Of a DNA stretch of 53,409 nt, positions 27,865 through 39,995 are shown piece by piece; the stretch's first letter is position 1; each line of letters opens with the position of its first letter. The position numbers and the translations under genes are program-made. Location: assembly GCA_017467845.1 (NCBI GenBank), contig JAFUKH010000019.1, positions 1 through 53,409 on the forward strand. The letters are read 5' to 3'. The DNA is from Lachnospiraceae bacterium (GTDB taxonomy: Bacteria > Bacillota > Clostridia > Lachnospirales > Lachnospiraceae). The notes below the pieces were generated by a model, which did not search any database, had not been told where the DNA came from, and saw only the letters and a program-made list of their open reading frames with translations.

Positions 27865-29916
27865 TTAGATGGAACGAAAGTCAACCTTGTACACATTACT
27901 ACATGTCATGGCTTTAATAAGCGTTTCTTCTTCTGTGGATGTATAGTAGCCAGTATATAGTCTGCCTACTGCTTCTGACACCTCTTTCAGGATGTCTGCA
28001 TCATTATAAATATCCCCAATTCTGAAGGCAAAATCACCGCTTTGACGGATTCCAAACAGGTCTCCCGGACCTCTAAGCTTCATGTCCTCAGAAGCAATAA
28101 AAAATCCATCATTTGATTTATTAAGGATGTCCAAACGCTTCATAGTATCCGGATTGTCCTGAGTATTTATAAAAATACAATAGCTCTGATGCTCTCCTCG
28201 CCCTACACGGCCACGAAGCTGATGAAGCTGGGCAAGACCGAACCGTTCTGCATTTTCCACCATCATTACGGTAGCATTGGGAACGTTGATACCAACCTCA
28301 ATAACTGTGGTAGACACCAGCACATCAATGTTTTTCTTAGAAAATTCATCCATGATTCGATTCTTCTCTGCAGGCTTCATTTTCCCGTGAAGATAAGCTA
28401 CCTGTATATTGGGTGGCAGATTATTTCGAAGTTTCTCCGTATATTCTACAACGTTTTCCAGCTCCTCCATTTCTCCCTCTTCTACCATGGGACAGATAAC
28501 ATATGCCTGTCTACCCTTTTCCACTTCCTTGGCAATAAAATCATAAGCCTTTGGGCGGAAGGAAGTATTTACCACACAGTTCTTAATAGGTAATCGATTG
28601 GCAGGAAGTTCATCAATAATGGATATTTGTAAATCTCCATACATAATAATTGCCAAGGTCCTGGGAATGGGTGTTGCACTCATTACAAGAACATGAGGAT
28701 TGTGGCCTTTCTCCGCTAGTGTCTCTCTCTGGCGTACACCAAATCGGTGCTGCTCATCCGTAACAACAAGCGCAAGATTCTTAAAAATAACCTTTTCCTG
28801 AATCACCGCATGGGTTCCGATAACTAAATTGGCTTCCCCGGAAGCAATCTTCTCATAGGCTGCTTTCTTCTGGGTGGCAGTCATACTTCCCACCAAAAGC
28901 ACCGGTTTTAGGGCAATGTGATACTTATCTATGTATTCCATAACCCCTTCATAATGCTGTGTTGCCAATACTTCCGTAGGTGCCATCAGTGCACCCTGAA
29001 AGCCGTTGGCAGCACACATCAAAAGGGCAAGTACCGCAATAATCGTCTTACCGCTTCCCACATCACCCTGTACAAGGCGGTTCATGGAATAGGGTGAATT
29101 TAAATCATTCTGAATCTCCACCCATACCTTCTTCTGGGCTTTGGTCAATTCATAAGGAAGCTGCTCTAAAAAGCGTCTGGTATCCGCAGTCTCTATCATG
29201 GGATACTCATTGGGTAACTGCTCTACCTGCTCCTTATTCTCTCGAAGATAAAATAAGAAAGAGAAAAACTCATCAAATACAAACCGTCGCCTTGCTTTCA
29301 CCAATTCCTCAAAACTGATTGGAAAATGCATCTGGTGCATGGCCTCTTTATAGGATATCAGCTGATGCTCTTTACAAAACCGTTCCGGATATACCTCCTT
29401 TTCAAAGGGGAAATAGGTAAGTGCCTGCTTCATCGCTTTGGAAATGGTGTTATTATTCAGCCCCTTAGTCAGTGGATATCTGGGCTGAATAAACTTCAAA
29501 AGTCCGTTATAATCCTCAACAGAGTAATACTTGGGTTGCTCCATTACCTTTACCGCACCTTTTCCCTGTACCATTCCACGGAACACATAGGTAGCACCAC
29601 TTTTCAGCACATTTTTTAGATAGGGCTGATTAAAGAAGGTTAAGGTCATGGCACCGGAGGCATCTTTGATTATCACATTCACAATGGTTAGATTTCGTAC
29701 CTTCTTGATACTGACGGTGCCGGATATCTTAGCACAGACACTGTGCATCTGTCCCACGTAAGCTTCTGCAATGGATACCGGTCTCTTAAAAGTCTCATAA
29801 TCCCTGGGAAAATGATGTAGGAGCTGCTCCACAGTTTCAATATGAAGTTTCTGAAATAACTTTGCGGTTTTATCTCCCACGCCCTTTAGCTGGGTAATCG
29901 GTGATGCATCAACCAT
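27865..29916 (-). CDS. recG: ATP-dependent DNA helicase RecG
   Basis: A 683-aa branch-migrating helicase that rescues stalled forks and processes Holliday junctions. The N-terminal wedge/OB domain begins ITQLKGVGDKTAKLF. Helicase motifs are Walker A GDVGSGKT, motif II DEQHRFG, motif III MSATPIPRT and motif VI QLRGRVGRG. Length is standard. AAGGAGGG precedes the ATG. It lies 60 bp after fakA across a weak terminator, the typical fakA-recG neighbourhood. Confidence 0.96.
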   Translation of the reverse strand: MVDASPITQLKGVGDKTAKLFQKLHIETVEQLLHHFPRDYETFKRPVSIAEAYVGQMHSVCAKISGTVSIKKVRNLTIVNVIIKDASGAMTLTFFNQPYLKNVLKSGATYVFRGMVQGKGAVKVMEQPKYYSVEDYNGLLKFIQPRYPLTKGLNNNTISKAMKQALTYFPFEKEVYPERFCKEHQLISYKEAMHQMHFPISFEELVKARRRFVFDEFFSFLFYLRENKEQVEQLPNEYPMIETADTRRFLEQLPYELTKAQKKVWVEIQNDLNSPYSMNRLVQGDVGSGKTIIAVLALLMCAANGFQGALMAPTEVLATQHYEGVMEYIDKYHIALKPVLLVGSMTATQKKAAYEKIASGEANLVIGTHAVIQEKVIFKNLALVVTDEQHRFGVRQRETLAEKGHNPHVLVMSATPIPRTLAIIMYGDLQISIIDELPANRLPIKNCVVNTSFRPKAYDFIAKEVEKGRQAYVICPMVEEGEMEELENVVEYTEKLRNNLPPNIQVAYLHGKMKPAEKNRIMDEFSKKNIDVLVSTTVIEVGINVPNATVMMVENAERFGLAQLHQLRGRVGRGEHQSYCIFINTQDNPDTMKRLDILNKSNDGFFIASEDMKLRGPGDLFGIRQSGDFAFRIGDIYNDADILKEVSEAVGRLYTGYYTSTEEETLIKAMTCSNVYKVDFRSI

Positions 29917-29935
29917 AATGCGCCCTCCTTAATTC

Positions 29936-29968
29936 ATAAAAAGCCCAGCCCTATAAGGACTGAGCTTT
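29936..29968 (-). terminator. terminator-like hairpin between fakA and recG
   Basis: The stem 29942-29951 / 29957-29966 pairs with two G-U wobbles on the minus strand and is followed by TTTTTATG. Readthrough into recG is possible, as recG has no clear promoter of its own here. Confidence 0.65.
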
Positions 29969-29976
29969 AATAATTA

Positions 29977-31668
29977 TTATTCCACTGAAACTACATAGTA
30001 ATAAATCGGTTGACCGCCATACTGAAGCTCTACATCACAATTCGGATGTGCTGCTTCCACCTTCTCACGAAGAGCTTCTGCATCATCTTCCTCTACGTCA
30101 CAACCATAGTAAATACTAATCAGCTCGCTGTCTTCATCACACATAGCGTCTACCATGCCAAGTGTAATAGCTTCCATATCCTTACCAACGGTTAAAATAC
30201 CTGCATCGCCGATACCCATGTAGTCACCCATCTTGATCTCTTTATCATCAATCATGGTATCTCTTACTGCATAAGTTACCTGACCGGTCTTAACATTACC
30301 AATCTCTGCAATCATTGCCTCTTCGTTCTCGTCTACAGATAAGTCCGGAACATAGTTAATTACAGCGGTGATTCCCTGAGGAATGGTCTTGGTAGGAATC
30401 ACAAGCAAATTCTTATCCGTCATCAGCTCAGCTGCTTGATTTGCAGCTAAAATAATGTTCTTATTATTGGGAAGAATGAAGATGGTCTCTGCATTTACCT
30501 TATCAACTGCATCTAAAATATCTGCAGTACTTGGATTCATGGTCTGACCGCCTTCGATAATATAATCCACGCCTAAGCTTTTGAAAATTTCATTGACACC
30601 TTCGCCTACGGAAACAGCAAGAAACCCTACTTCCTTTGCAGGCTCATCCTGCACAGGAGCTGATGAAGCCTCCACCTGTGCTGTTTCCTTCTCAGCCATC
30701 TTAAAAAGCTTCTCTTCATGCTCAAGTCGCATGTTATCAATCTTCATATTAGAAAGACCACCATAGGTAAGTGCTCTCTGAATTGCCAGTCCCGGATCAT
30801 TGGTATGAACATGTACCTTAACTACATCTTCATCTGCAACACATACGATGGAATCACCGATGGACTCAAGGAACGCTTTAAAGTCCTTCTCCATCTTTGC
30901 AGTAAAGGTCTTATTTAACATAATAATAAACTCGGTACAATAGCCGAACTTAATATCCATCTCTGCCTGCACGCCATAGCTGGAAGACATCTGGCCTGCT
31001 CCTGCCTGGGTGTTCTTAACTTCGGAAATTGTATAATCAATCTCCTTACCCATTAAAGCATCATATGCACCGTTTAATACTTCTACAAGCCCCTGACCGC
31101 CGGAGTCAACAACACCTGCTTGCTTTAATACAGGAAGCATTTCCGGAGTCAAACTAAGAACATACTTAGCGTGCTCAATTACCTGACCAACAAAGCTTTC
31201 TAATTCCATATTTTCATCTGCTGCAAGCTCTTTTGCCTTTTCAGCAGCTCCCTTTGCAACAGTTAAGATCGTACCTTCCTTTGGCTTCATAACTGCTTTA
31301 TATGCAGTCTCTACTGCTCTTTCACAAGCCTCCGCAAGGATCACCACGGTAATGGTATCTTCCTCTGCAATACGCTTGGTAAAGCCACGGAACAACTGTG
31401 ATAAGATTACACCGGAGTTACCTCGCGCTCCTCGCAGGGAACCACCGGAAATAGCTTTACAAATCTCCTTCATGGAACCATTCTCCATTGCAGCGGCAAC
31501 TTCCTTAGCAGCGGACATAATCGTCATGGTCATATTGGTACCGGTGTCACCATCAGGAACAGGGAATACGTTTAACTCGTTAATCCACTCTTTTTTACTT
31601 TCCAGGTTTTTCGCACCCGCTAAGAACATTTTTGCCAAAAGCTTAGCGTCTATTGAATTTATAGCCAC
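29977..31668 (-). CDS. fakA: fatty acid kinase catalytic subunit FakA (YloV, DAK2 domain)
   Basis: A 563-aa cytosolic kinase. The N-terminal DhaL/DAK2 domain binds ATP and magnesium through VPDGDTGTN (residues about 37-45) and SGGSLRGARGNSGVI. A middle domain and a C-terminal DegV-related domain complete the standard FakA layout. It phosphorylates fatty acids held by FakB proteins. The start is a GTG at 31668 behind AGGAGG. It follows asp23 by 11 bp, the conserved yloU-yloV pair. Confidence 0.92.
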   Translation of the reverse strand: MAINSIDAKLLAKMFLAGAKNLESKKEWINELNVFPVPDGDTGTNMTMTIMSAAKEVAAAMENGSMKEICKAISGGSLRGARGNSGVILSQLFRGFTKRIAEEDTITVVILAEACERAVETAYKAVMKPKEGTILTVAKGAAEKAKELAADENMELESFVGQVIEHAKYVLSLTPEMLPVLKQAGVVDSGGQGLVEVLNGAYDALMGKEIDYTISEVKNTQAGAGQMSSSYGVQAEMDIKFGYCTEFIIMLNKTFTAKMEKDFKAFLESIGDSIVCVADEDVVKVHVHTNDPGLAIQRALTYGGLSNMKIDNMRLEHEEKLFKMAEKETAQVEASSAPVQDEPAKEVGFLAVSVGEGVNEIFKSLGVDYIIEGGQTMNPSTADILDAVDKVNAETIFILPNNKNIILAANQAAELMTDKNLLVIPTKTIPQGITAVINYVPDLSVDENEEAMIAEIGNVKTGQVTYAVRDTMIDDKEIKMGDYMGIGDAGILTVGKDMEAITLGMVDAMCDEDSELISIYYGCDVEEDDAEALREKVEAAHPNCDVELQYGGQPIYYYVVSVE

Positions 31669-31679
31669 GATATATCCTC

Positions 31680-32039
31680 CTAATCAATCACTCTAACACC
31701 TTCAACGAAGATGTTGATTTTCTCAACCTTAACTCCCATGAACTCTTCTACTTTGTACTTCACATTGCTGGTCAAATTCTCTGCAACAGCATTGATGCTG
31801 ACACCATATGCAACAATTACATGGAAATCCAAAACTAACTTGTTATTCTCTACAGAAACATTAATTCCACGAGTAATATTGTCCTTCTTCAGTAGACGCA
31901 CCAAGCCGTCTTTTACACTGACACCGGCCATACCAACAATACCAAAGCACTCCACGGCTACGGTTCCGGCATACTGTGCAATTACTTCGTTATTAATAGT
32001 GATACTTCCAAGGTGGGTATTTAATGAAGAACCTTTCAT
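31680..32039 (-). CDS. Asp23/Gls24-family envelope stress protein (YloU)
   Basis: A 119-aa protein of the Asp23 family, which lies under the membrane and responds to envelope stress in Firmicutes. The family pattern is clear: LGSITINNEVIAQYAG, then GIVGMAG, and the C-terminal VKVEKINIFVEGVRV. No membrane segment. First gene of asp23-fakA-recG-degV with its own promoter. AGGAGG precedes the ATG. Confidence 0.92.
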   Translation of the reverse strand: MKGSSLNTHLGSITINNEVIAQYAGTVAVECFGIVGMAGVSVKDGLVRLLKKDNITRGINVSVENNKLVLDFHVIVAYGVSINAVAENLTSNVKYKVEEFMGVKVEKINIFVEGVRVID

Positions 32040-32086
32040 ACGAAACCTCCTAAAAATGCTCGCAATTCACAAGCGTACTATATGTG

Positions 32087-32115
32087 ATTATAACCTTTAT
32101 TCTTTACCGTTTCAA
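32087..32115 (-). promoter_or_regulatory. promoter of asp23-fakA
   Basis: On the minus strand, -35 TTGAAA (32110-32115) and -10 TATAAT (32087-32092) are spaced 17 bp. It lies just past the terminator of the upstream dlt-like operon. Confidence 0.8.
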
Positions 32116-32125
32116 GTCTAATTAT

Positions 32126-32174
32126 TAAAAATAAGGGCCCCACAATACATTTTTCAGTATTGTAGAACCCTTAT
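32126..32174 (-). terminator. long terminator after the dlt-like operon
   Basis: An 18-bp stem (arms about 32131-32148 and 32157-32174) has only G-U wobbles in its middle on the minus strand. It is followed by a T-rich run (TTTTTAAT). It lies 13 bp after the lipoprotein stop. Confidence 0.85.
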
Positions 32175-32186
32175 ATATTAACTGAA

Positions 32187-32759
32187 TTAATCCATTTTTG
32201 CAGCGTAGGTTATATTTGTTACACAGTCATCCTCAAAAAAGAAGGTTAACTGGCACTCCCCCTTATCATAAACCAATGCTACATCTGTCTCTGATGTGGC
32301 TGCACCATAGGTAGCAACAACATCCTCCTTAGAAGAACCAATATAGATTCCTTCTGCGGTAGTAATTGTATCATCCTTCAACTCAATGGTCAACACATAA
32401 TCTTTATCATTTTCCGGATATGTATTGATTACAACACTTCCATAAGTGTACACCTTATCCATTCCCTGAAAAGCACAGGATTCGGACTCGAAATACTTAT
32501 CAGGCTCGCCCCATGCTTCCACGATAGGTGCCATTTCGCCGTTTACTGCCACGTCTACTCCTCCCTGAGAATACACATAGCCCGGTTCTGCGACCTGCTC
32601 TTCTACTGACTGCTGAGAGCTTTCCTGAGCAGAAGCTTCTTCTGATACTGCCGGAGCAGTTTCACTGTTTGCTGCAGGAGCTTCCGATGAACCACAGCCT
32701 GTAAAAAGGCTTACTACAAGCATACTACTTACTAAAATACTGACGAATCTTTTTTTCAT
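32187..32759 (-). CDS. lipoprotein of unknown function in the dlt-like operon
   Basis: A 190-aa secreted lipoprotein. The signal peptide ends in the lipobox LFTGC, with Cys22 as the lipidation site. A Ser/Ala/Glu-rich linker (about 25-60) leads to a C-terminal domain of about 120 residues with alternating strands (VNGEMAPIVEAWGEP, then EGIYIGSSKEDVVATYG). These repeats resemble small BamE/PepSY-like folds, but I cannot assign a family. As the last gene of the operon it may act outside the membrane with the SGNH protein. Confidence 0.8.
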   Translation of the reverse strand: MKKRFVSILVSSMLVVSLFTGCGSSEAPAANSETAPAVSEEASAQESSQQSVEEQVAEPGYVYSQGGVDVAVNGEMAPIVEAWGEPDKYFESESCAFQGMDKVYTYGSVVINTYPENDKDYVLTIELKDDTITTAEGIYIGSSKEDVVATYGAATSETDVALVYDKGECQLTFFFEDDCVTNITYAAKMD

Positions 32760-32782
32760 AACTTACTCCTTTTTGTGAAGCA

Positions 32783-33859
32783 TTAATTCCGGATGGCATT
32801 GGCTCCAAAACTTACCAGCTCACCATACTGCTCCAGCTCACTATATTGCTGCTCTTTCATGGCATTGTAGAAATCTACCTTTTCCTGCCAGATTGTAGCA
32901 TACTCCTCGTTTTCACGATAATCGATCAAATCATAATTCTCCTTCAGATATGCACCGAAATAATCCGCCATCTTCTCCGCACCGGAGGTGTTCAGATGAA
33001 GACCTGCATCATAGGTATCCACGGACATATCCAAACCGATTTCTTCCTGAAGAGGAATATAGTTAATATACTCCACATCATTATTTTTTGCAAATTCAAC
33101 TACCTGGGCATCCCACTCATCATACCAGTGAGGGTATTCCGTTGGAGCCTTTATCAAAATAAGCTCTATTCCCTTTTCTTTACATAAATCCACCATTTTC
33201 TGCATATACCCCATAGCATTCTCGCCTAAGGTATAATCTGCTAATGGTCTTGGGTCCGGGAACTCACTTTGGGGTTTAGAATCCACACGCATATAATAAC
33301 CATTGTGGGTCACAAGATCCTTACTGAAAAAATGCTCAAAATCATCACTTGTCAGCTCAGACCAGCGGGAATGATAACGAAGAAGCGGGAATACATAATC
33401 AATAAAATTCTCCTCCTCAGTCATGGATGCCTTAATATTATTTATCTTAGACACAGACCAATTCATTCCGTCAATGGACATACGGTTATATGCCTCATTC
33501 TGAGGCGTATTGTACTTGAGGGCAAGTACGTTAAATACCACTACTTTGGGTGTTTCGTACTTCAGGGCATCCTCCAAAAGATAATAGGATTGCCAGGTCA
33601 GCTGCTGAGCACTACCACGGATAAAGCTGGTAATACCATACTTTTCCCAAAGTGTTATGGTTGAAAAATTCTCATAAACTTCACAGTCTCCAATGAAAAG
33701 CACTTCGTGAGCGGACTTGTCTTTATAATACTCCTCCACCATAGAACCTTCCACAATACCGGTCTGGTATTTCGGAACAAGAAGTCTTTGTAATAAATAC
33801 AGACTACCCAGAGTTAAAATAATCACCAGGAAGGCTGCTACGAATCTTTTACTCTTCAT
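32783..33859 (-). CDS. SGNH-like extracytoplasmic protein in the DltD position, Cys at the nucleophile site
   Basis: A 358-aa protein with an N-terminal membrane anchor (about residues 6-24) and an outside SGNH/GDSL-type domain. Block I reads VLFIGDCEVYENF, aligning with the GSSE motif of DltD-like proteins but with Cys59 where the nucleophilic Ser is expected. A candidate acid/base pair is Asp284 and His288 in YDAGLHLN. DltD-type proteins help transfer acyl groups to cell-surface polymers with an MBOAT partner, encoded 11 bp upstream. The Cys could form a thioester intermediate or mark loss of activity. Strong AGGAGG site. Confidence 0.75.
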   Translation of the reverse strand: MKSKRFVAAFLVIILTLGSLYLLQRLLVPKYQTGIVEGSMVEEYYKDKSAHEVLFIGDCEVYENFSTITLWEKYGITSFIRGSAQQLTWQSYYLLEDALKYETPKVVVFNVLALKYNTPQNEAYNRMSIDGMNWSVSKINNIKASMTEEENFIDYVFPLLRYHSRWSELTSDDFEHFFSKDLVTHNGYYMRVDSKPQSEFPDPRPLADYTLGENAMGYMQKMVDLCKEKGIELILIKAPTEYPHWYDEWDAQVVEFAKNNDVEYINYIPLQEEIGLDMSVDTYDAGLHLNTSGAEKMADYFGAYLKENYDLIDYRENEEYATIWQEKVDFYNAMKEQQYSELEQYGELVSFGANAIRN

Positions 33860-33870
33860 ATATCATCCTC

Positions 33871-35457
33871 CTAGAACTGATTATAAATAAACTGTGATGA
33901 ATCATACCCTACACCATAAGCGCCAAATACGATGGTTACAAGGAACATCAAAGCCATCACAGTATAAAATACAAATGCCGGCTTTGCATATAATACTTCA
34001 CGGACACTGTAGGCCTTCACCTTCATAATACTTACGGAAAGTACAATGATAAGACCGATAGCCAGCACCATATAGTCCGCTCCTGTAAGTCCAATCTGCA
34101 TCAGAGAACCGTCTGTAAAGATTCCCGGATTACACTTTGTAAACATGGAACCCACCATCTTAAAGGTAAGGGGCACATCCCGGTAGCAGTCAAACATTCT
34201 GATGGCACTCATAAGCAAAATGGTACGAATAATTTGGAAGCCTTCATAAAGAGGCTTTCCCTTTACCTTAAAGCGATTATGGAACTTAGCATATAAGGGC
34301 TCTAATTCCTGGGAAATCATAATTACCACAAAGTTCATAAGTCCCCAGACAATGAAATTCCAAGCCGCACCATGCCAGATACCGGTAGTCAGCCATACTA
34401 CAAAGCTGGATAAATACACAGGTACTCTCTTACCAATCACTTCTCCCAGATGATTTCTTGACCACTTGGAAATCTTAAGCATAGGACCGCATACGGAAAT
34501 GGGATAGAAAATATAGTCCGTAAACCAGGTACCCATTGTGATGTGCCAGCGATTCCAATATTCCTTAATATTCTTAGAAAAATAGGGAAGATGGAAGTTC
34601 TCTGCCAACCTAATTCCCATCATTTCTGCAATACCGATGGTGATATCAATACCTCCGGTAAAGTCACAATAAAGCTCAAATGCATAGAAAAGCATTGCTA
34701 CAAATACATAAGTTCCCGTATAAGTATCTGTCTGCTGCACCAGAGTGGTTACTGCCGTAAGCATACGGTCAGCAATAACAACCTTCTTAAAGTATCCCCA
34801 AAGAACTCTGTAAAGTCCAAAGGAAACCGTCTTTTCATCAAATTTATGCTCTGCAAAAAGTGTGGGTGCCAAATCACCATATCTACTGATAGGCCCCTGC
34901 ACCAGCTGTGGGAAAAAGGAAACAAAAAGAGCCAGCTTAAAGGGATTTCGTTGTGCCTCCTGCTTTCCACGATACACATCAATAATATACCCCATAGTCT
35001 GGAAGGTATAGAATGAAATTCCCATTGGGACAATCATATCCACCAGCTGTAGCTTAGAGGTATCATTCAGAAAATTGTTGATATTATTAATTACAAAGTT
35101 GGTATACTTTGTTACAGATAAAATACCGATATTCAGAAAAAGACATACTAAAAGCCACTTCCATTTCTTCGCCTTCACCTGCGCCTTGTACGCCTTCTTC
35201 TCTTCCTTGGACATCTGCGCTTTATGTGCGGTCATATATTCCTTGGAAGCATTATTAATATTTTCCATTACAATGCTGATTCCATAGGTAGACAGTGTTG
35301 TCACCAATATAAATAAAAGATATCTGGGGTCAGCAATAAAATAGAAAATATAGCTAAAAATCAGTAACAGTGGCCACTGCATCTTCTTGGGAATAAGATA
35401 ATAGGACACCACTACCAGGATTAAAAATCCAATAAATTCAATTGATGTAAATAACAT
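33871..35457 (-). CDS. MBOAT-family O-acyltransferase (DltB-like)
   Basis: A 528-aa polytopic membrane protein, with about 11 or 12 hydrophobic segments, of the membrane-bound O-acyltransferase family. It would move an acyl or aminoacyl group from a carrier on the inside to an acceptor outside. The family's catalytic His is His362 in GIWHGAAWNF; the preceding WNRWHITMG motif (His305) is also conserved. A basic cytoplasmic loop lies at about 75-100. It sits between the carrier protein and the SGNH protein, mirroring dltC-dltB-dltD. The alginate-type (AlgI) family has the same fold, so the substrate must come from the neighbours. Confidence 0.9.
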   Translation of the reverse strand: MLFTSIEFIGFLILVVVSYYLIPKKMQWPLLLIFSYIFYFIADPRYLLFILVTTLSTYGISIVMENINNASKEYMTAHKAQMSKEEKKAYKAQVKAKKWKWLLVCLFLNIGILSVTKYTNFVINNINNFLNDTSKLQLVDMIVPMGISFYTFQTMGYIIDVYRGKQEAQRNPFKLALFVSFFPQLVQGPISRYGDLAPTLFAEHKFDEKTVSFGLYRVLWGYFKKVVIADRMLTAVTTLVQQTDTYTGTYVFVAMLFYAFELYCDFTGGIDITIGIAEMMGIRLAENFHLPYFSKNIKEYWNRWHITMGTWFTDYIFYPISVCGPMLKISKWSRNHLGEVIGKRVPVYLSSFVVWLTTGIWHGAAWNFIVWGLMNFVVIMISQELEPLYAKFHNRFKVKGKPLYEGFQIIRTILLMSAIRMFDCYRDVPLTFKMVGSMFTKCNPGIFTDGSLMQIGLTGADYMVLAIGLIIVLSVSIMKVKAYSVREVLYAKPAFVFYTVMALMFLVTIVFGAYGVGYDSSQFIYNQF

Positions 35458-35465
35458 ACTTTTTT

Positions 35466-35693
35466 CTACTCATCCCCTAAACGTTCAATTAACTCATATA
35501 AAGCCTGTGCAGAATTGAAGTTCTCAGGTACGATTTCCTCTGCTGGGATTACCACATCAAAATTCTCACTGATTTCAGAGATAATGGTAACAATATCAAA
35601 AGAATCTAAAATCTTGTCATCAATTAAAGTATCACAAGTTTCGTAATCCACCTCCGGGTGTAAGTCCTGTAAAATTTCTAATAATTCATCCAT
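35466..35693 (-). CDS. acyl/aminoacyl carrier protein (DltC-like)
   Basis: A 75-aa four-helix carrier protein. The phosphopantetheine attachment site is Ser31 in ILDSFDIV, the DltC-like wording rather than the DSL of fatty-acid ACPs. It is acidic, as expected. It lies 3 bp after the adenylation gene and 8 bp before the MBOAT gene, so it is the obvious acceptor of the amino acid activated by the adenylating enzyme. Confidence 0.88.
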   Translation of the reverse strand: MDELLEILQDLHPEVDYETCDTLIDDKILDSFDIVTIISEISENFDVVIPAEEIVPENFNSAQALYELIERLGDE

Positions 35694-35696
35694 GAT

Positions 35697-37229
35697 TTAA
35701 TTCTCCTTTGTTTTCTCTTCATAGTATTTCTTTAAATATACTCTGTCCAGCTTACCATTGGCGGTAAGAGGCATCTTTTCAAGCTTTTCTACTTTATTAG
35801 GAATCATGTATCTGGGAAGCTTGCCCTTAAGTACAACTACAAGATCCTTTACTTCCATCTCACCTACATAGAAAAGAATGATTTTCTCTTTTTCTTTATC
35901 ATAAATACAGCAGGATGTTGATACATCATCCAGCATATTTACATTCACTTCAATTTCACCCAGCTCAATCCGGTGACCCATATGCTTAATCTGATAATCC
36001 TTACGGGACACAAATACAAGTTCTCCCCGCTCATTTCGCTTTCCAAGGTCGCCTGTACGATAAATCAGCTCAGGATATCTGTCATTTAATGGATTTTGTA
36101 CAAATACCTCATTGGTCTTTTCAAAAGCATGATAATACCCAAGGGTCAGTGAAGTTCCTCGTACACAGATTTCCCCTACTTCACCATCCTTTGCCAACTG
36201 ATTTTGATCATTTAAAAGTAGAATCTCGGTGTTGTGAAAAGGTCTGCCGATAGGCATCACTTCATCTAATTCAAAATCTCTGTCTACCTTATAATAACAG
36301 CACATTCCGGTGGTCTCGGTAGGTCCGTAAAGATTGGTAAACTTTGCGTTTGGAAGTGCTTTTTTCCAGAGATGGAACTGCTTAATGGGGAATACTTCAC
36401 TACCAAACGCTACAGTATGTAAATACTCCGGAATCATCTTATCAAATACCTTAAAGGATGAAATCATAGTAAGGGCGGATACTACCCAGCATACCGTATT
36501 AATCCTGTGCTCGTTTAAAAATTCCACCAGCTTCATAGGGAACATAAACAAGCTTTTGGGTACGATATAAGTGGTTGCACCAAATTTCAAGGTAGGATAA
36601 AGCTCCTTTAAGCAGGCATCAAAATAAAGTGGTGCCTGATTAGCAAATCTGGTTTCCTCATTAAAACCCAAGACATCGGACAAATTCTCAATATAATCAA
36701 TAACAGAACGGTGACAGGCAACTACACCTTTCGGGATACCTGTAGAGCCTGAAGTAAATACAATATATATCGGGTCGGTATCCAGCTGCTTATCACGAAT
36801 ATTAGCAATAACAGCCTCATCAATCTCCGTCTTCGTAATATCATCATAAAGAACAATCTTAACATTACCCTTTGCGGCAAATTCCTTGGCAAGCTCTGCG
36901 GTGGAATCATCGCAAATCATTACTTTGGGCTGGAGATTGTCAAAAATCAGTTCAATACGGAACTTCGGCATCTCTTCATCAATGGGCACATAGTAATCAC
37001 CGCCATAGACACAGCCAAAGAATGTTGCAATAGCCTTCGGGTGTTTCTTCATAAATACTACAACCGGCTCATGATAGTAACCATTCTTATAAAGATAGGT
37101 GCCGATAGCTCTACTATCATGAAAAACTTCTCCAAAAGTAAGTCCTTCTGATTCATTGGCAAAAGCTATCTTATCCGGAAGACGTACCACTGTTTTCTCA
37201 AGGTATTCTAACACATTTGTCTGTTGCAT
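35697..37229 (-). CDS. DltA-like amino-acid adenylating enzyme with altered substrate pocket
   Basis: A 510-aa ANL-superfamily ligase that activates an amino acid with ATP and loads the downstream carrier. Motifs are the P-loop VFTSGSTGIPKG, YGPTETT, RTGDLG, and the C-terminal catalytic Lys493 in LTANGKLDR. Aligned by eye with DltA and NRPS A-domains, the pocket residues are Asp204 (amino group), Ala205, Lys208, Trp248, Ala274, Gly276, Leu300, Gly308 and Met309. DltA has Cys where Gly276 lies (FCGEV against FGSEV) and Met where Lys208 lies. The first three match the Asp-Ala-Lys start of a known glutamate code. I infer a substrate other than D-Ala, perhaps acidic. Confidence 0.85.
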   Translation of the reverse strand: MQQTNVLEYLEKTVVRLPDKIAFANESEGLTFGEVFHDSRAIGTYLYKNGYYHEPVVVFMKKHPKAIATFFGCVYGGDYYVPIDEEMPKFRIELIFDNLQPKVMICDDSTAELAKEFAAKGNVKIVLYDDITKTEIDEAVIANIRDKQLDTDPIYIVFTSGSTGIPKGVVACHRSVIDYIENLSDVLGFNEETRFANQAPLYFDACLKELYPTLKFGATTYIVPKSLFMFPMKLVEFLNEHRINTVCWVVSALTMISSFKVFDKMIPEYLHTVAFGSEVFPIKQFHLWKKALPNAKFTNLYGPTETTGMCCYYKVDRDFELDEVMPIGRPFHNTEILLLNDQNQLAKDGEVGEICVRGTSLTLGYYHAFEKTNEVFVQNPLNDRYPELIYRTGDLGKRNERGELVFVSRKDYQIKHMGHRIELGEIEVNVNMLDDVSTSCCIYDKEKEKIILFYVGEMEVKDLVVVLKGKLPRYMIPNKVEKLEKMPLTANGKLDRVYLKKYYEEKTKEN

Positions 37230-37250
37230 ATATCAATTCTCCTCGCTAAT

Positions 37251-37982
37251 TTATTGCCCCTTTAAAGGAACAAATAACTCCCGGTATTTCGGATGAACCT
37301 CTTTTCCGCACAGGGAAATTGCCCTTTTTACCAGCACTTCCATGGCATCACAGATTCCATCCCCCAGTTCGTAATCTCTTTTAATTACAGAAAGCTCCGT
37401 ACATCCAAGTACGATAGCCTGAGCTCCCTCTTCCTTTATTAAATAATCCTTTATCTCAAAAAAACTATTCATATCCGGTTCCTTCCCCTTCTTTACATCA
37501 TCGTAAATCAGGCTCATAACCTTCTGTTGCATATCTTCCTTAGGAACAATGGCTTCCAGACCAAGCATTTCCAGTTCATTTTGGAAAATACGACTCTGAA
37601 TGGTTCCGTCTGTGGCCATAATTCCCACTCTCTGAACATTTTTTTCTTTTAATAAAAGTGCAGTCTCACGAATACCATGTATCACGGGAAGCCCGGTTGC
37701 TTCTTCAATCTCCTGATGGAAATAGTGGGCTGTAATACAGGGAATCGCAATGCAGGATACTTCCTGCTCCTTCAATCTCTTTCCCAGCTCAATAATTTTC
37801 GGCAGGGGACTATCTTGACTTAGCCCCAATATGTATGCGGTACGATCCGGAATGGTGGGACAATTATAAATAATCATCTCCAAATGCTCCTGATCCGTCT
37901 CTGCCTTTGTCATATTGATTACAAGCTGCATGAAATAGGCTGTGGCCATTGGTCCCAGTCCACCTATTACACCTAAACTCAT
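37251..37982 (-). CDS. aspartate/glutamate-racemase-family amino acid racemase
   Basis: A 243-aa PLP-independent racemase (PF01177 type). The two-cysteine mechanism is supported by Cys82 in IPCITAHYF and Cys194 in LGCTELS. The N-terminal GVIGGLGPMATAYF and the IPDRT motif match the YgeA-like branch, whose members act on Asp, Glu or other amino acids. The usual PCNTAH reads PCITAH here. It is 16 bp after the transglutaminase-like gene and 21 bp before the adenylating enzyme, so it probably supplies the D-amino acid that is activated. A canonical D-Ala pathway would use an alanine racemase instead. Confidence 0.85.
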   Translation of the reverse strand: MSLGVIGGLGPMATAYFMQLVINMTKAETDQEHLEMIIYNCPTIPDRTAYILGLSQDSPLPKIIELGKRLKEQEVSCIAIPCITAHYFHQEIEEATGLPVIHGIRETALLLKEKNVQRVGIMATDGTIQSRIFQNELEMLGLEAIVPKEDMQQKVMSLIYDDVKKGKEPDMNSFFEIKDYLIKEEGAQAIVLGCTELSVIKRDYELGDGICDAMEVLVKRAISLCGKEVHPKYRELFVPLKGQ

Positions 37983-37998
37983 CCTAAGTACTCACTTT

Positions 37999-39525
37999 CT
38001 ACTGATTTAAAGTACCATTACTATAATTCACCATATGCTGCACGGACTCCGTAGCACGCTCCGGATAAAGACTGCCGTCAAAAATATGGGAATTACGATG
38101 CAGGGAAGAATATGCCTCCAGCTCTGCATCCGTCACCATAAAGAAATTATCGCCGCTTCCCGACCTTGGTGTACAATCCACATGATACCAGCCATCACCA
38201 AGATTGATGAGACTCCAATAATGTGAAGAACGTGAGGTATCACTCTTTACAATATCCACATTCTCAATTCCGGCTACATTATAAAGTGCTTTCGCCGCAG
38301 CAAAATAGGTATAGCAGTCACCGGAACGGTTCTTAAATGCCTGATAAGCACCCTTAATCCAATCACTCTTATCCGAGCTTCCGGTATAACCGATGCTTGT
38401 AAGCGTCCATCGGTAAATGGCAAAGGCCTTCTCCATATCAGTCATACTCTCGTCCGTAATACGGGCAAGAATATCGGCTGCCTTTTCATAGACCTCCTGC
38501 TCCATAGCAAGAGTCTCCAAGGACTTCACCGTTACCTGAATGGTTGCGGTAGAAGCATTTCCTTTTCGATCCGTAGCAGTATAAATCACCTCATAAATGC
38601 CGGGGGTTTCTAAATCTACCTGACTGTTATCAATAGTCAGGGTAGGATTTTCATCCTTATCATCCGTTACCGTTACACCCTTACGATAGCTGATGCTTCC
38701 ACCAACTTCTACTGTAATATCCTGGGTACCCTCGATTACAGGTGCAAGCACATCCGGTATCACGATAACCTTTATGGGTTGCTTTGCAATATTACCGGCC
38801 TTATCTGTTGCGATATAAACTGCTTCATACTCGCCGCCTTGATTCAAATCAACCTGACTGTCATCAACAATAAGAGAAGGATTCTCATCCTTATTATCCG
38901 TTACCGCGATTCCCTCCAGGTATTCCAGAGTCATTCCTTCATCAATACTTAAATCTACAGCCCCTTCAATCACCGGAGCCTCTGTATCTGCAAGAACGAT
39001 AATGGTTACCGGGATTTCCGTCACATTGCCGCCTTTATCTTGTAGAAGGATCACTGTATCTACATTTCCGGCCTTATTAACATCCGGAACTTCCTTATAT
39101 GATACAGTAACCTCTGTGGCATCTTCAATATTAACTACGCAGTCCTCCGGCAAAGGTAAAATCTCCTCCAATGTCTCCGGTGACAATGCACTTCCGCTTG
39201 GTGGCAGCGTATCCACGATTGTCATAATACAAGAATAAACCTTATCCTTTACTTGTATCTGAATTGTATACTCTCCCAAATCAGAAATACCGATTTCTTC
39301 TATATTAGTAACAAACTCTCCCTGAATCCGTTCATTGATAAGGAATTCTTCTATATTAATAAAGGTCCCTGCTTCATGAGTAACAGACTCAACCACCGGT
39401 CTACGAAATAGAGCATAAAAAATTAATCCGATAAGAACTAGTACTGATGTCGCCAAAACAATCCAAAGAGCTTTCTTTCTTTTTTTTGACGTTTTATGTA
39501 TATGATTACTTACATTCTCAGACAT
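37999..39525 (-). CDS. membrane-anchored transglutaminase-like protein with Ig-type repeats
   Basis: A 508-aa protein with a short basic cytoplasmic N-terminus and one membrane segment (about 20-40). A beta-rich region follows, then two clear Ig/DUF5011-type repeats, about residues 183-257 and 261-333, each with VTDxKDENP and SQVDL wording. A transglutaminase-like domain (about 340-470) follows, with catalytic triad candidates Cys404 in SGDCYTYF, His435 in SSHYWSL and Asp450 in YHVDCTP. It faces outward. It may be a cysteine protease, an amidase or an acyl transferase acting on the wall. First gene of the seven-gene operon with a good promoter and AGGAGG site. Confidence 0.85.
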   Translation of the reverse strand: MSENVSNHIHKTSKKRKKALWIVLATSVLVLIGLIFYALFRRPVVESVTHEAGTFINIEEFLINERIQGEFVTNIEEIGISDLGEYTIQIQVKDKVYSCIMTIVDTLPPSGSALSPETLEEILPLPEDCVVNIEDATEVTVSYKEVPDVNKAGNVDTVILLQDKGGNVTEIPVTIIVLADTEAPVIEGAVDLSIDEGMTLEYLEGIAVTDNKDENPSLIVDDSQVDLNQGGEYEAVYIATDKAGNIAKQPIKVIVIPDVLAPVIEGTQDITVEVGGSISYRKGVTVTDDKDENPTLTIDNSQVDLETPGIYEVIYTATDRKGNASTATIQVTVKSLETLAMEQEVYEKAADILARITDESMTDMEKAFAIYRWTLTSIGYTGSSDKSDWIKGAYQAFKNRSGDCYTYFAAAKALYNVAGIENVDIVKSDTSRSSHYWSLINLGDGWYHVDCTPRSGSGDNFFMVTDAELEAYSSLHRNSHIFDGSLYPERATESVQHMVNYSNGTLNQ

Positions 39526-39572
39526 AATGTCCTCCTAAACATATAATTGTACGCAAAAGCTCCATTCTCACT

Positions 39573-39601
39573 ATTATAGTATAAGGTGAAATGAAGCGCA
39601 A
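39573..39601 (-). promoter_or_regulatory. promoter of the seven-gene dlt-like operon
   Basis: On the minus strand, -35 TTGCGC (39596-39601) and -10 TATAAT (39573-39578) are spaced 17 bp. The predicted leader is about 40 nt before the ATG at 39525. No other operator-like repeat is visible. Confidence 0.75.
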
Positions 39602-39646
39602 GGTTTTGTATGCAAGAAAAATATTTAGATTTTTGTCTATTTCTAC

Positions 39647-39675
39647 TTGCTTTATTTCCCTCTTTCTGTTAATAT
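39647..39675 (+). promoter_or_regulatory. rpmB: putative rpmB promoter
   Basis: -35 TTGCTT (39647-39652) and -10 TAATAT (39670-39675) are 17 bp apart on the plus strand, with an overlapping TATACT at 39673. It is divergent from the dlt-like operon promoter. Confidence 0.55.
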
Positions 39676-39719
39676 ACTACTGTTGTGTTAATATAAACTC
39701 AGTTTGAGGAGGTGTAAAA

Positions 39720-39905
39720 ATGGCTAAATGTGATGTTTGTTCAAAAGGCGTTCATTTTGGTAATAACGTGAGCCATTCTCATAGAAGAAGTAACGCTATC
39801 TGGAATCCAAACGTTAAGTCTGTAAAATGCAAAGTTAATGGTGTTACTAAGAGAATGCACGTTTGTACCAGCTGCTTAAAATCCGGCTTAGTAGAAAGAG
39901 CATAA
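39720..39905 (+). CDS. rpmB: 50S ribosomal protein L28
   Basis: A 61-aa large-subunit ribosomal protein of standard length. It begins MAKCDVC and contains SHSHRRSNAIWNPN. Four cysteines (Cys4, Cys7, Cys49, Cys52) form the zinc-ribbon (C+) version. The site GAGGAGG lies 9 nt before the ATG. It is monocistronic, with its own promoter and a strong terminator. In many Firmicutes rpmB lies next to asp23-fakA; here the dlt-like operon separates them. Confidence 0.97.
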   Translation: MAKCDVCSKGVHFGNNVSHSHRRSNAIWNPNVKSVKCKVNGVTKRMHVCTSCLKSGLVERA

Positions 39906-39950
39906 TTGAAACATTCTTTTATATTTTTTATTTAAAATCGATTTTAAGTA

Positions 39951-39978
39951 AAAAACCTGTTCGCGTGAACAGGTTTTT
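39951..39978. terminator. bidirectional terminator between rpmB and the J-domain gene
   Basis: A 12-bp perfect stem (39951-39962 and 39967-39978) with loop GCGT and T-runs on both strands serves rpmB and the convergent J-domain gene. The palindrome TTAAAATCGATTTTAA (39932-39947) lies just before it. Confidence 0.93.
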
Positions 39979-39995
39979 TTATTACTTCCATATAT

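Follow-up and report, generated by a model that had tools for sequence, protein, structure and literature searches.

D-Alanylation is the textbook means by which Gram-positive bacteria tune their surface charge. The stretch of DNA analysed here (the window) comprises the 53,409 nucleotides of contig JAFUKH010000019.1 from a Lachnospiraceae bacterium (assembly GCA_017467845.1), and its minus strand carries at 32187-39525 a dlt-like operon of seven genes, separated by gaps of 16, 21, 3, 8, 11 and 23 bp. The genes encode a transglutaminase-like protein, a RacD-like racemase, a DltA-like ligase, a small carrier protein, an MBOAT acyltransferase, an SGNH-like protein and a lipoprotein. A sequence-only reading had proposed this unit; all the reading frames lie where it placed them and the gene families are those it named, the SGNH assignment being weakly supported by the libraries. 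The gene set recurs across many genomes and is therefore no chance assembly. The operon is real, and its most plausible reading is a dlt-like system that handles an acidic residue, probably D-aspartate (D-Asp), with an unusual cysteine step.

Proteins encoded by the operon

The comparisons that follow draw on 144 ligase loci, 73 of them in the clade of the window's ligase and 71 outside it, with genes counted when they lie within 8 kb of the ligase; the counts cover related genomes and not independent events. The ligase itself belongs to the AMP-binding family and is matched better by Dlt and amino-acid adenylation models than by acyl-CoA ligase models. It scores 316.3 bits with AA-adenyl-dom (cut-off 317.4) and 264.1 bits with the DltA model TIGR01734, whose cut-off of 559.85 it does not reach. 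That cut-off is a strict one: the best DltA-like protein found, L126, scores 544.7 bits, and no protein passes it in any of 21 relatives' genomes (the window's own included) or of 119 genomes of the phylum. The ten specificity positions of the pocket were read by alignment and give the code DAKWAGLGMK, to be set beside DLLSLCLVAK in L126 and DLMSLCTVAK in L073, both of which we take to be canonical DltA. As had been claimed from the sequence, Lys208 aligns with the Leu or Met of these two proteins and Gly276 with their Cys, so that the pocket cysteine of DltA is absent from the window's ligase. The code is nearly constant across the window's clade (DAKWAGLGMK or close to it), but the idea that Lys208 is special to the racemase-bearing system does not hold, as it is also present in racemase-free sister clades (DSKW, DVKW). 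The DltA cysteine is described in the available part of PMC9338922 as taking part in the choice of D-Ala versus L-Ala; its numbering was not found in PMC4176424.

The carrier protein matches Pfam PP-binding_2 below the cut-off (E 3.4e-4), has the attachment serine within an LDSFD motif that is aligned across relatives, and misses both DltC equivalog cut-offs (18.0 versus 52.35 bits and 28.7 versus 68 bits). The MBOAT protein exceeds the Pfam MBOAT cut-off, matches the DltB structures 6bug and 8jem at E values of about 1e-22 and aligns its WHG with that of DltB, so that the catalytic histidine is present, but at 146.6 bits it falls short of the DltB equivalog cut-off of 375. Its C-terminus reads FIYNQF. 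In the available part of PMC12148441 FxYxxF is described as an acyl-shuttle motif, carried by DltX in the Dlt system and by the C-terminus of the MBOAT protein itself where DltX is lacking. The window therefore joins a Dlt-type ligase and carrier to a PatA-type fused shuttle. The motif occurs in 62 of the 65 clade loci with an MBOAT gene, compared with 40 of 57 elsewhere.

The most unusual feature of the operon is the replacement of serine by cysteine in the SGNH-like protein, which has GDCE where relatives have GDS, GSS, GNS, GTS or GAS. The nucleophile is Cys in all 61 readable clade members and Ser in 50 of 52 proteins elsewhere, the other two being a gap in L099 and a Cys in L054; on the ligase tree the switch amounts to a single change (60 Cys rows, 49 Ser rows). 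L054 (3396-9523) holds a Cys-type operon without a ligase of its own beside an opposite-strand ligase with the code SMLWLALDIK, and the cysteine therefore tracks the lineage of the transferase, its tie to the ligase not being a strict one. The window's protein matches GDSL_2 (E 0.019) and DUF1574 (E 0.06) weakly and its relatives match better, with GDSL_2 in six and DUF1574 in four of the ten members of one alignment (A2), at E values of up to 0.1. There was no useful match to a solved structure by sequence search and no DltD family among the matches to Pfam and NCBIfam models, whilst an hhalign comparison with one DltD-like protein gave a probability of 4.5% (E 0.009, 78 columns). An AlphaFold2 model (mean pLDDT 87.5) predicts Cys59 at the beginning of a helix that directly follows a core strand, which is where the SGNH serine would be expected. 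The available part of the SGNH review PMC9487903 does not mention a cysteine nucleophile.

The racemase scores 218 bits with TIGR00035, well over the cut-off of 93.1, and its best match among solved structures is the aspartate racemase 1jfl. The two catalytic cysteines, Cys82 and Cys194, and also Arg47 and Lys164 are kept in all 55 racemase copies from the surveyed loci. The Arg/Lys pair presumably binds the acidic side chain; a literature search on Arg48 and Lys164 of Asp racemase found nothing.

The transglutaminase-like protein contains Pfam Transglut_core and Bact_surface_Ig-like domains, and the Cys-His-Asp residues are present in all 26 aligned sequences, the window's included. A gene with this domain lies beside 64 of the 73 clade ligases and 1 of the 71 others; this linkage, the MBOAT shuttle motif and the cysteine swap had no place in the sequence-only reading. 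At two clade loci (L285, 9913-13257; L292, 5442-8261) the transglutaminase-like domain is fused in one polypeptide with a pyridoxal phosphate (PLP) decarboxylase, and at L292 a hydrophobic segment (residues 537-556) separates the two. Such a fusion would tie a transglutaminase-like domain outside the cell to amino acid chemistry inside it. The lipoprotein, which also recurs in relatives, has a sub-cut-off match to Pfam DUF3558 only.

Co-inheritance and genomic setting

Two surveys supplied most of the loci. One covered 295 genomes of the order, of which 108 had a ligase match at 1e-30, and 75 stretches were fetched, mainly stand-alone matches, with peptide-synthetase matches mostly left out; the other covered 397 genomes of the family, with matches in 60 genomes at 1e-150 and 56 further stretches fetched. 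To these were added the window, two same-genus loci and 11 of 80 named loci, the remaining 69 (L151-L219, at most 33% identity) being left out, and one peptide synthetase (L076) was removed. Also excluded from the counts were L106, L107, L126 and L132-L134 (short or reference loci), L109 and L110 (replaced by L258 and L259) and L250-L257 (the surroundings of unlinked racemases). In one tree, built from 91 ligases, that of the window belongs to a 31-member group (SH-aLRT 99), and in a quicker tree of the 139 of 144 ligases that passed a length filter its group numbers 69 with a support of 100. For the tree labels, L054 was omitted from the Cys/Ser character because its Cys protein sits in an opposite-strand operon, L054 and L285 were entered as lacking the transglutaminase-like gene and L281 as having the racemase.

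A racemase that homologous operons carry only sporadically was named in the sequence-only reading as a finding that would speak against it, and the survey does not show this: the gene lies near 54 of the 73 clade ligases and none of the 71 others, and L281, where it is just beyond 8 kb, would bring the total to 55. If only the 63 clade loci flanked on each side by 2.5 kb or more are counted, the racemase is present in 49, the transglutaminase-like gene in 56 and a readable SGNH protein, always with Cys, in 57; the other six have no SGNH protein nearby. Asparagine synthase genes occur in six clade loci, decarboxylases in two and N-acetyltransferases in none, compared with none (at a strict threshold), 20 and 18 respectively among the other loci. 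All six asparagine synthase operons (L080, L258, L269, L281, L284, L288) also have the racemase. Three of the six proteins were put to family models: that of L258 exceeds the equivalog cut-off of glutamine-hydrolysing asparagine synthase, and those of L080 and L269 contain both a synthase and a glutamine amidotransferase domain. A profile of the L258 protein picked up the remaining three, with scores of 942-1027 bits. When the threshold is loosened, weaker matches resembling asparagine synthase appear at six N-acetyltransferase-clade loci and L261.

The presence of the racemase changes nine times on the ligase tree (125 rows with enough flank). Racemases of this kind are found at 1e-20 in 36 of the 295 genomes, and in 18 of these they belong to the operon. 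Independent recruitment of the racemase was considered on a tree that combined 22 linked copies with 12 of the 18 unlinked ones, and was set aside: two changes are needed, yet a single clade is not rejected (p-AU 0.25). One unlinked racemase, with Ile after the first Cys, lies behind a 1500-residue ligase-containing peptide-synthetase-like frame and a carrier (L250, 1615-8822), and in L255 (3321-6045) a membrane protein stands between a CuyA-like D-cysteate sulfo-lyase gene and a racemase of this family. Two proteins of 408 and 403 residues, next to the unlinked racemases in L251 and L257, were considered as possible D-Asp ligases and not used, Pfam giving no match at 1e-5; the 403-residue protein of L257 has a weak carbamoyl-phosphate-synthase-like match in NCBIfam only.

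Sister clades, for which one representative of each enzyme was put to the family libraries, combine other pocket codes with other enzymes. All 17 loci with codes beginning DSKW have an N-acetyltransferase, and in the DSKW..IVDK clade (L031-L040, L096, L098, L100-L103, L105) this GNAT acetyltransferase gene is placed between ligase and carrier in all 17. Codes beginning DVKW or IARW often go with a decarboxylase similar to LysA and TIGR03099, below the TIGR03099 cut-off. Where the code lacks its leading Asp (SMTW, IARW), the substrates may be without the usual alpha-amino group.

Table 1. Features of the operon in the window.
Feature	Position	Strand	Residues or basis
Transglutaminase-like protein, probably extracellular and membrane-anchored: hydrophobic helix at the N-terminus, Ig-like domains, transglutaminase-like domain at the C-terminus	37999..39525	-	
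Asp/Glu-type (RacD-like) amino acid racemase	37251..37982	-	Cys82 37737-37739, Cys194 37401-37403
DltA-like amino acid ligase, pocket code DAKWAGLGMK	35697..37229	-	Family models and alignment
Pocket Lys208 codon	36606..36608	-	Alignment
Pocket Gly276 codon	36402..36404	-	Alignment
Carrier protein	35466..35693	-	Phosphopantetheine Ser31 at 35601-35603
MBOAT acyltransferase; DltB-type histidine (WHG), acyl-shuttle motif fused at the C-terminus	33871..35457	-	
Acyl-shuttle motif FIYNQF (FxYxxF)	33874..33891	-	Tyr525 at 33883-33885
SGNH-like membrane protein, Cys replacing catalytic Ser	32783..33859	-	Cys59 33683-33685, His288 32996-32998
Small lipoprotein, lipobox LFTGC	32187..32759	-	Lipobox read in sequence
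Promoter-like site TTGCGC-17-TATAAT	39573..39601	-	Read in sequence
Intrinsic-terminator-like hairpin and T-rich tail	32131..32174	-	Scan; 18-pair stem, G-T pairs allowed

The terminator that had been placed at 32126-32174 was recovered as a strong hairpin with a T-rich tail (Table 1). In the promoter-like site the -10 box is perfect and the -35 box agrees at three of six positions, which is why the site is missing from the list produced by the signal scan. In that scan real and shuffled sequence gave about equal numbers, namely 6 versus 5.7 terminator-like sites and 30 versus 25.5 promoter-like sites. An L28-like ribosomal protein gene lies divergently upstream, and asp23-like, dihydroxyacetone-kinase-like and recG-like frames lie downstream (27865-39995, named by eye); the operon seems to be inserted between genes that adjoin in many Bacillota. 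Within the genus it is patchy, being present in three genomes (G000, G298, G306), whilst the six other listed genomes of the genus have no ligase match at 1e-30. The window's own genome, which is 85.8% complete, encodes an LtaS-like protein of 687 residues, and lipoteichoic acid is therefore a possible acceptor. A peptide-synthetase gene with a 2454-residue frame is present in the same genome (G000:C72; L076).

Proposed substrate and mechanism

From the gene content, pocket residues, shuttle motif, cysteine swap and co-inheritance observed, we infer a substrate and its stereochemistry, a direction of transfer and an acceptor. The proposal is a dlt-like surface aminoacylation with an acidic amino acid, most likely Asp, and D-Asp where the racemase is present, and we regard its chances as evenly balanced. 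The RacD-like racemase would make D-Asp in the cytoplasm, and the ligase would adenylate it, with Lys208 facing the side-chain carboxylate, and load it onto the small carrier. The MBOAT protein would then move the residue to Tyr525 of its own FIYNQF motif, in place of a separate DltX. Next, Cys59 of the SGNH-like protein would accept the acyl group, giving a thioester instead of the serine oxyester expected in relatives. The final acceptor would lie outside the membrane and may be lipoteichoic acid or some other polymer or protein of the envelope, and the transglutaminase-like protein may be a partner in the transfer or may later use or remove the added groups.

An acidic residue is favoured because of the co-inheritance of the racemase, its conserved Cys, Arg and Lys residues, the asparagine synthase and the Lys and Gly of the pocket. 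The decarboxylases of Lys208-bearing sister clades and the two decarboxylase-transglutaminase fusions of the window's own clade are also counted in its favour. The shuttle motif, the single Ser-to-Cys change on the tree and the LtaS-like protein of the genome speak for the proposal as a whole. What had been proposed from the sequence thus stands in part: the exporter is dlt-like and the residue probably not D-Ala and probably acidic, but Glu, whose NRPS code had been likened to the pocket, gives way to Asp. The asparagine synthase in six operons, together with the RacD-type racemase, favours Asp over Glu, and Glu was ranked second as a substrate for this reason. Literature searches on the Glu code of nonribosomal peptide synthetases (NRPS) and on Lys239 in adenylation domains found nothing. 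In Lactococcus lactis, according to the available part of PMC4155827, racD (Asp racemase) and aslA (D-Asp ligase) share an operon, and amidation of D-Asp after its addition falls to the asparagine synthase AsnH. By analogy, which is not proof, a racemase and an asparagine synthase in one operon would match the needs of a D-Asp/D-Asn system.

A number of observations weigh against this proposal. The residue after Cys82, which is Asn in the aligned solved Asp racemases, is Ile83 in the window and Ile, Val or Met in 53 of 55 copies, and the racemase also exceeds the NCBIfam cysteate racemase cut-off (197.1 versus 190 bits), so that its substrate could differ from Asp. Cysteate was rejected as the substrate: the CuyB cut-off is also passed by the unlinked racemases L251 (beside an asparagine synthase) and L257 and therefore does not discriminate. 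The racemase is absent within 8 kb from 19 of the 73 clade loci, some of them cut by contig ends, and seven operons (L052, L088, L093, L142, L143, L144, L287) lack it whilst being otherwise complete, that is with the transglutaminase-like gene, ligase, carrier, MBOAT and Cys-type SGNH genes (L088 and L144 lie near contig ends). In L285 and L292 the decarboxylase fusion takes its place. Four of six racemase-less genomes searched have no related racemase at 1e-6, and neither has a seventh, G133, whose locus is cut by a contig end. The other two carry an unlinked racemase, near a CuyA-type D-cysteate sulfo-lyase identified by family model in G114 (L255) and beside a similar neighbour named by eye in G019 (L256, 7144-9984). 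A D-amino acid aminotransferase was rejected as an alternative source of D-Asp, none exceeding the cut-off in 18 genomes, the six racemase-less ones included. That the racemase is an obligatory supplier, as had been supposed, is not supported. To these points may be added that the clade ligases L290 and L294 have no partner gene within 8 kb, that L097 has no SGNH protein nearby, that the catalytic His column of the SGNH protein is Asp in L089, L090 and L092, where the Cys nucleophile is kept, and that Trp248 and Gly308 fit no acidic NRPS code that we know of.

It is somewhat unlikely that the same machine carries glutamate, either D-Glu supplied by MurI or the L form, or else L-Asp, with the racemase an accessory that enriches one enantiomer or recycles the other. 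The racemase-less operons have the same or nearly the same pocket code, MurI-type D-Glu is generally on hand in any organism that makes peptidoglycan, and the sister clades with decarboxylases would suit a conversion of Glu to gamma-aminobutyric acid by enzymes like TIGR03099 and BtrK; against Glu, the linked racemase is of the Asp/cysteate type and not MurI, and the asparagine synthase of six operons is a better fit to Asp. Very unlikely, in our view, is a diverged but ordinary D-alanylation, or the transfer of another small neutral D-amino acid, with the racemase serving some other purpose. The overall likeness to the DltA, DltB and DltC profiles can be cited for it, as can an own genome that has an LtaS-like protein yet no canonical DltA over the cut-off, and a cut-off so strict that L126, taken as a true DltA, falls just short of it. 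The window's ligase, however, scores far below L126, its Gly and Lys replace the Cys and the hydrophobic Leu or Met of DltA, and D-Ala would call for an alanine racemase and not that of the operon; with the DltA, DltB and DltC cut-offs all missed, D-Ala was rejected as the substrate.

The product of the pathway is a separate matter. The transglutaminase-like protein and the Cys-type SGNH protein could act as a relay that passes the acyl group to an amine, so that the product is an amide and not an alkali-labile ester, its purpose being amide formation and not charge tuning. This is compatible with the transfer of Asp proposed above, but we consider it unlikely. In its favour, the Ser-to-Cys switch happened once, in a clade where the transglutaminase-like gene accompanies 64 of 73 ligases (and is fused in L285), a thioester is by general chemistry suited to aminolysis, and in L089, L090 and L092, where the SGNH histidine column is Asp, the Cys, His and Asp of the transglutaminase-like domain are kept. 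The type of bond is conjectural, however, transglutaminase-like folds may also be hydrolases, and L054 retains the Cys although the adjoining ligase has a different code. Doubtful as a whole is the joint claim of a surface acylation of a new type, in which D-Asp (in some species amidated to D-Asn) would cross the membrane as a tyrosine ester, move to a cysteine thioester on what was once an SGNH serine enzyme and be fixed by the transglutaminase-like protein as an amide on an envelope amine, in a polymer or a protein. The same claim would make the wider family a modular one, with ligase pocket and tailoring enzyme (a racemase with or without asparagine synthase, a decarboxylase or an N-acetyltransferase) exchanged together, and gut Bacillota would carry several non-alanine amino acids on their surfaces.

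Relation to known systems

No description of such a system was found in the open-licence literature searched. With the Dlt system (DltA, DltC, DltB, DltX, DltD) the window shares an adenylating ligase, a stand-alone carrier, a DltB-like MBOAT protein, a putative SGNH-type partner and a tyrosine shuttle motif. It differs in the cut-offs and pocket residues described above, in the fusion of the shuttle motif to the MBOAT protein, in an SGNH partner that is not recognisably DltD and has Cys, and in the additional racemase, transglutaminase-like protein and lipoprotein. A DltA-like ligase and carrier have reportedly been re-tooled for another amino acid in the AlmEFG glycine transfer of Vibrio, which has a different type of transferase and is not known to include a racemase. 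In the sister clades a decarboxylase of the kind of BtrK and the exosortase-associated TIGR03099 enzymes adjoins the ligase and carrier, whereas the window has a racemase instead. PatA/PatB and other MBOAT-SGNH pairs likewise have FxYxxF on the C-terminus of the MBOAT protein and an SGNH partner, a putative one in the window, but PatA draws its group from acetyl-CoA and such pathways have no carrier protein (available part of PMC12148441); in the window the group is supplied by a ligase and carrier and the SGNH nucleophile is Cys and not the catalytic Ser. The racD, aslA and asnH genes of lactic-acid-bacterial peptidoglycan synthesis resemble the operon in having an Asp racemase and, in some of its members, an asparagine synthase, but there the peptidoglycan precursor receives its D-Asp from an ATP-grasp ligase whilst still within the cell (available part of PMC4155827), in contrast to the DltA-like ligase and membrane acyltransferase of the window.

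The pocket codes and the tailoring enzymes linked to them make the substrate of each branch directly testable, and the conserved Cys in place of a catalytic Ser poses a mechanistic question, namely whether the intermediate is a thioester or an ester and the product an amide or an ester. Should gut bacteria use such sister systems for other amino acids, new rules would apply to their surface charge, to the response to antimicrobial peptides and to the way in which host and phage recognise them.

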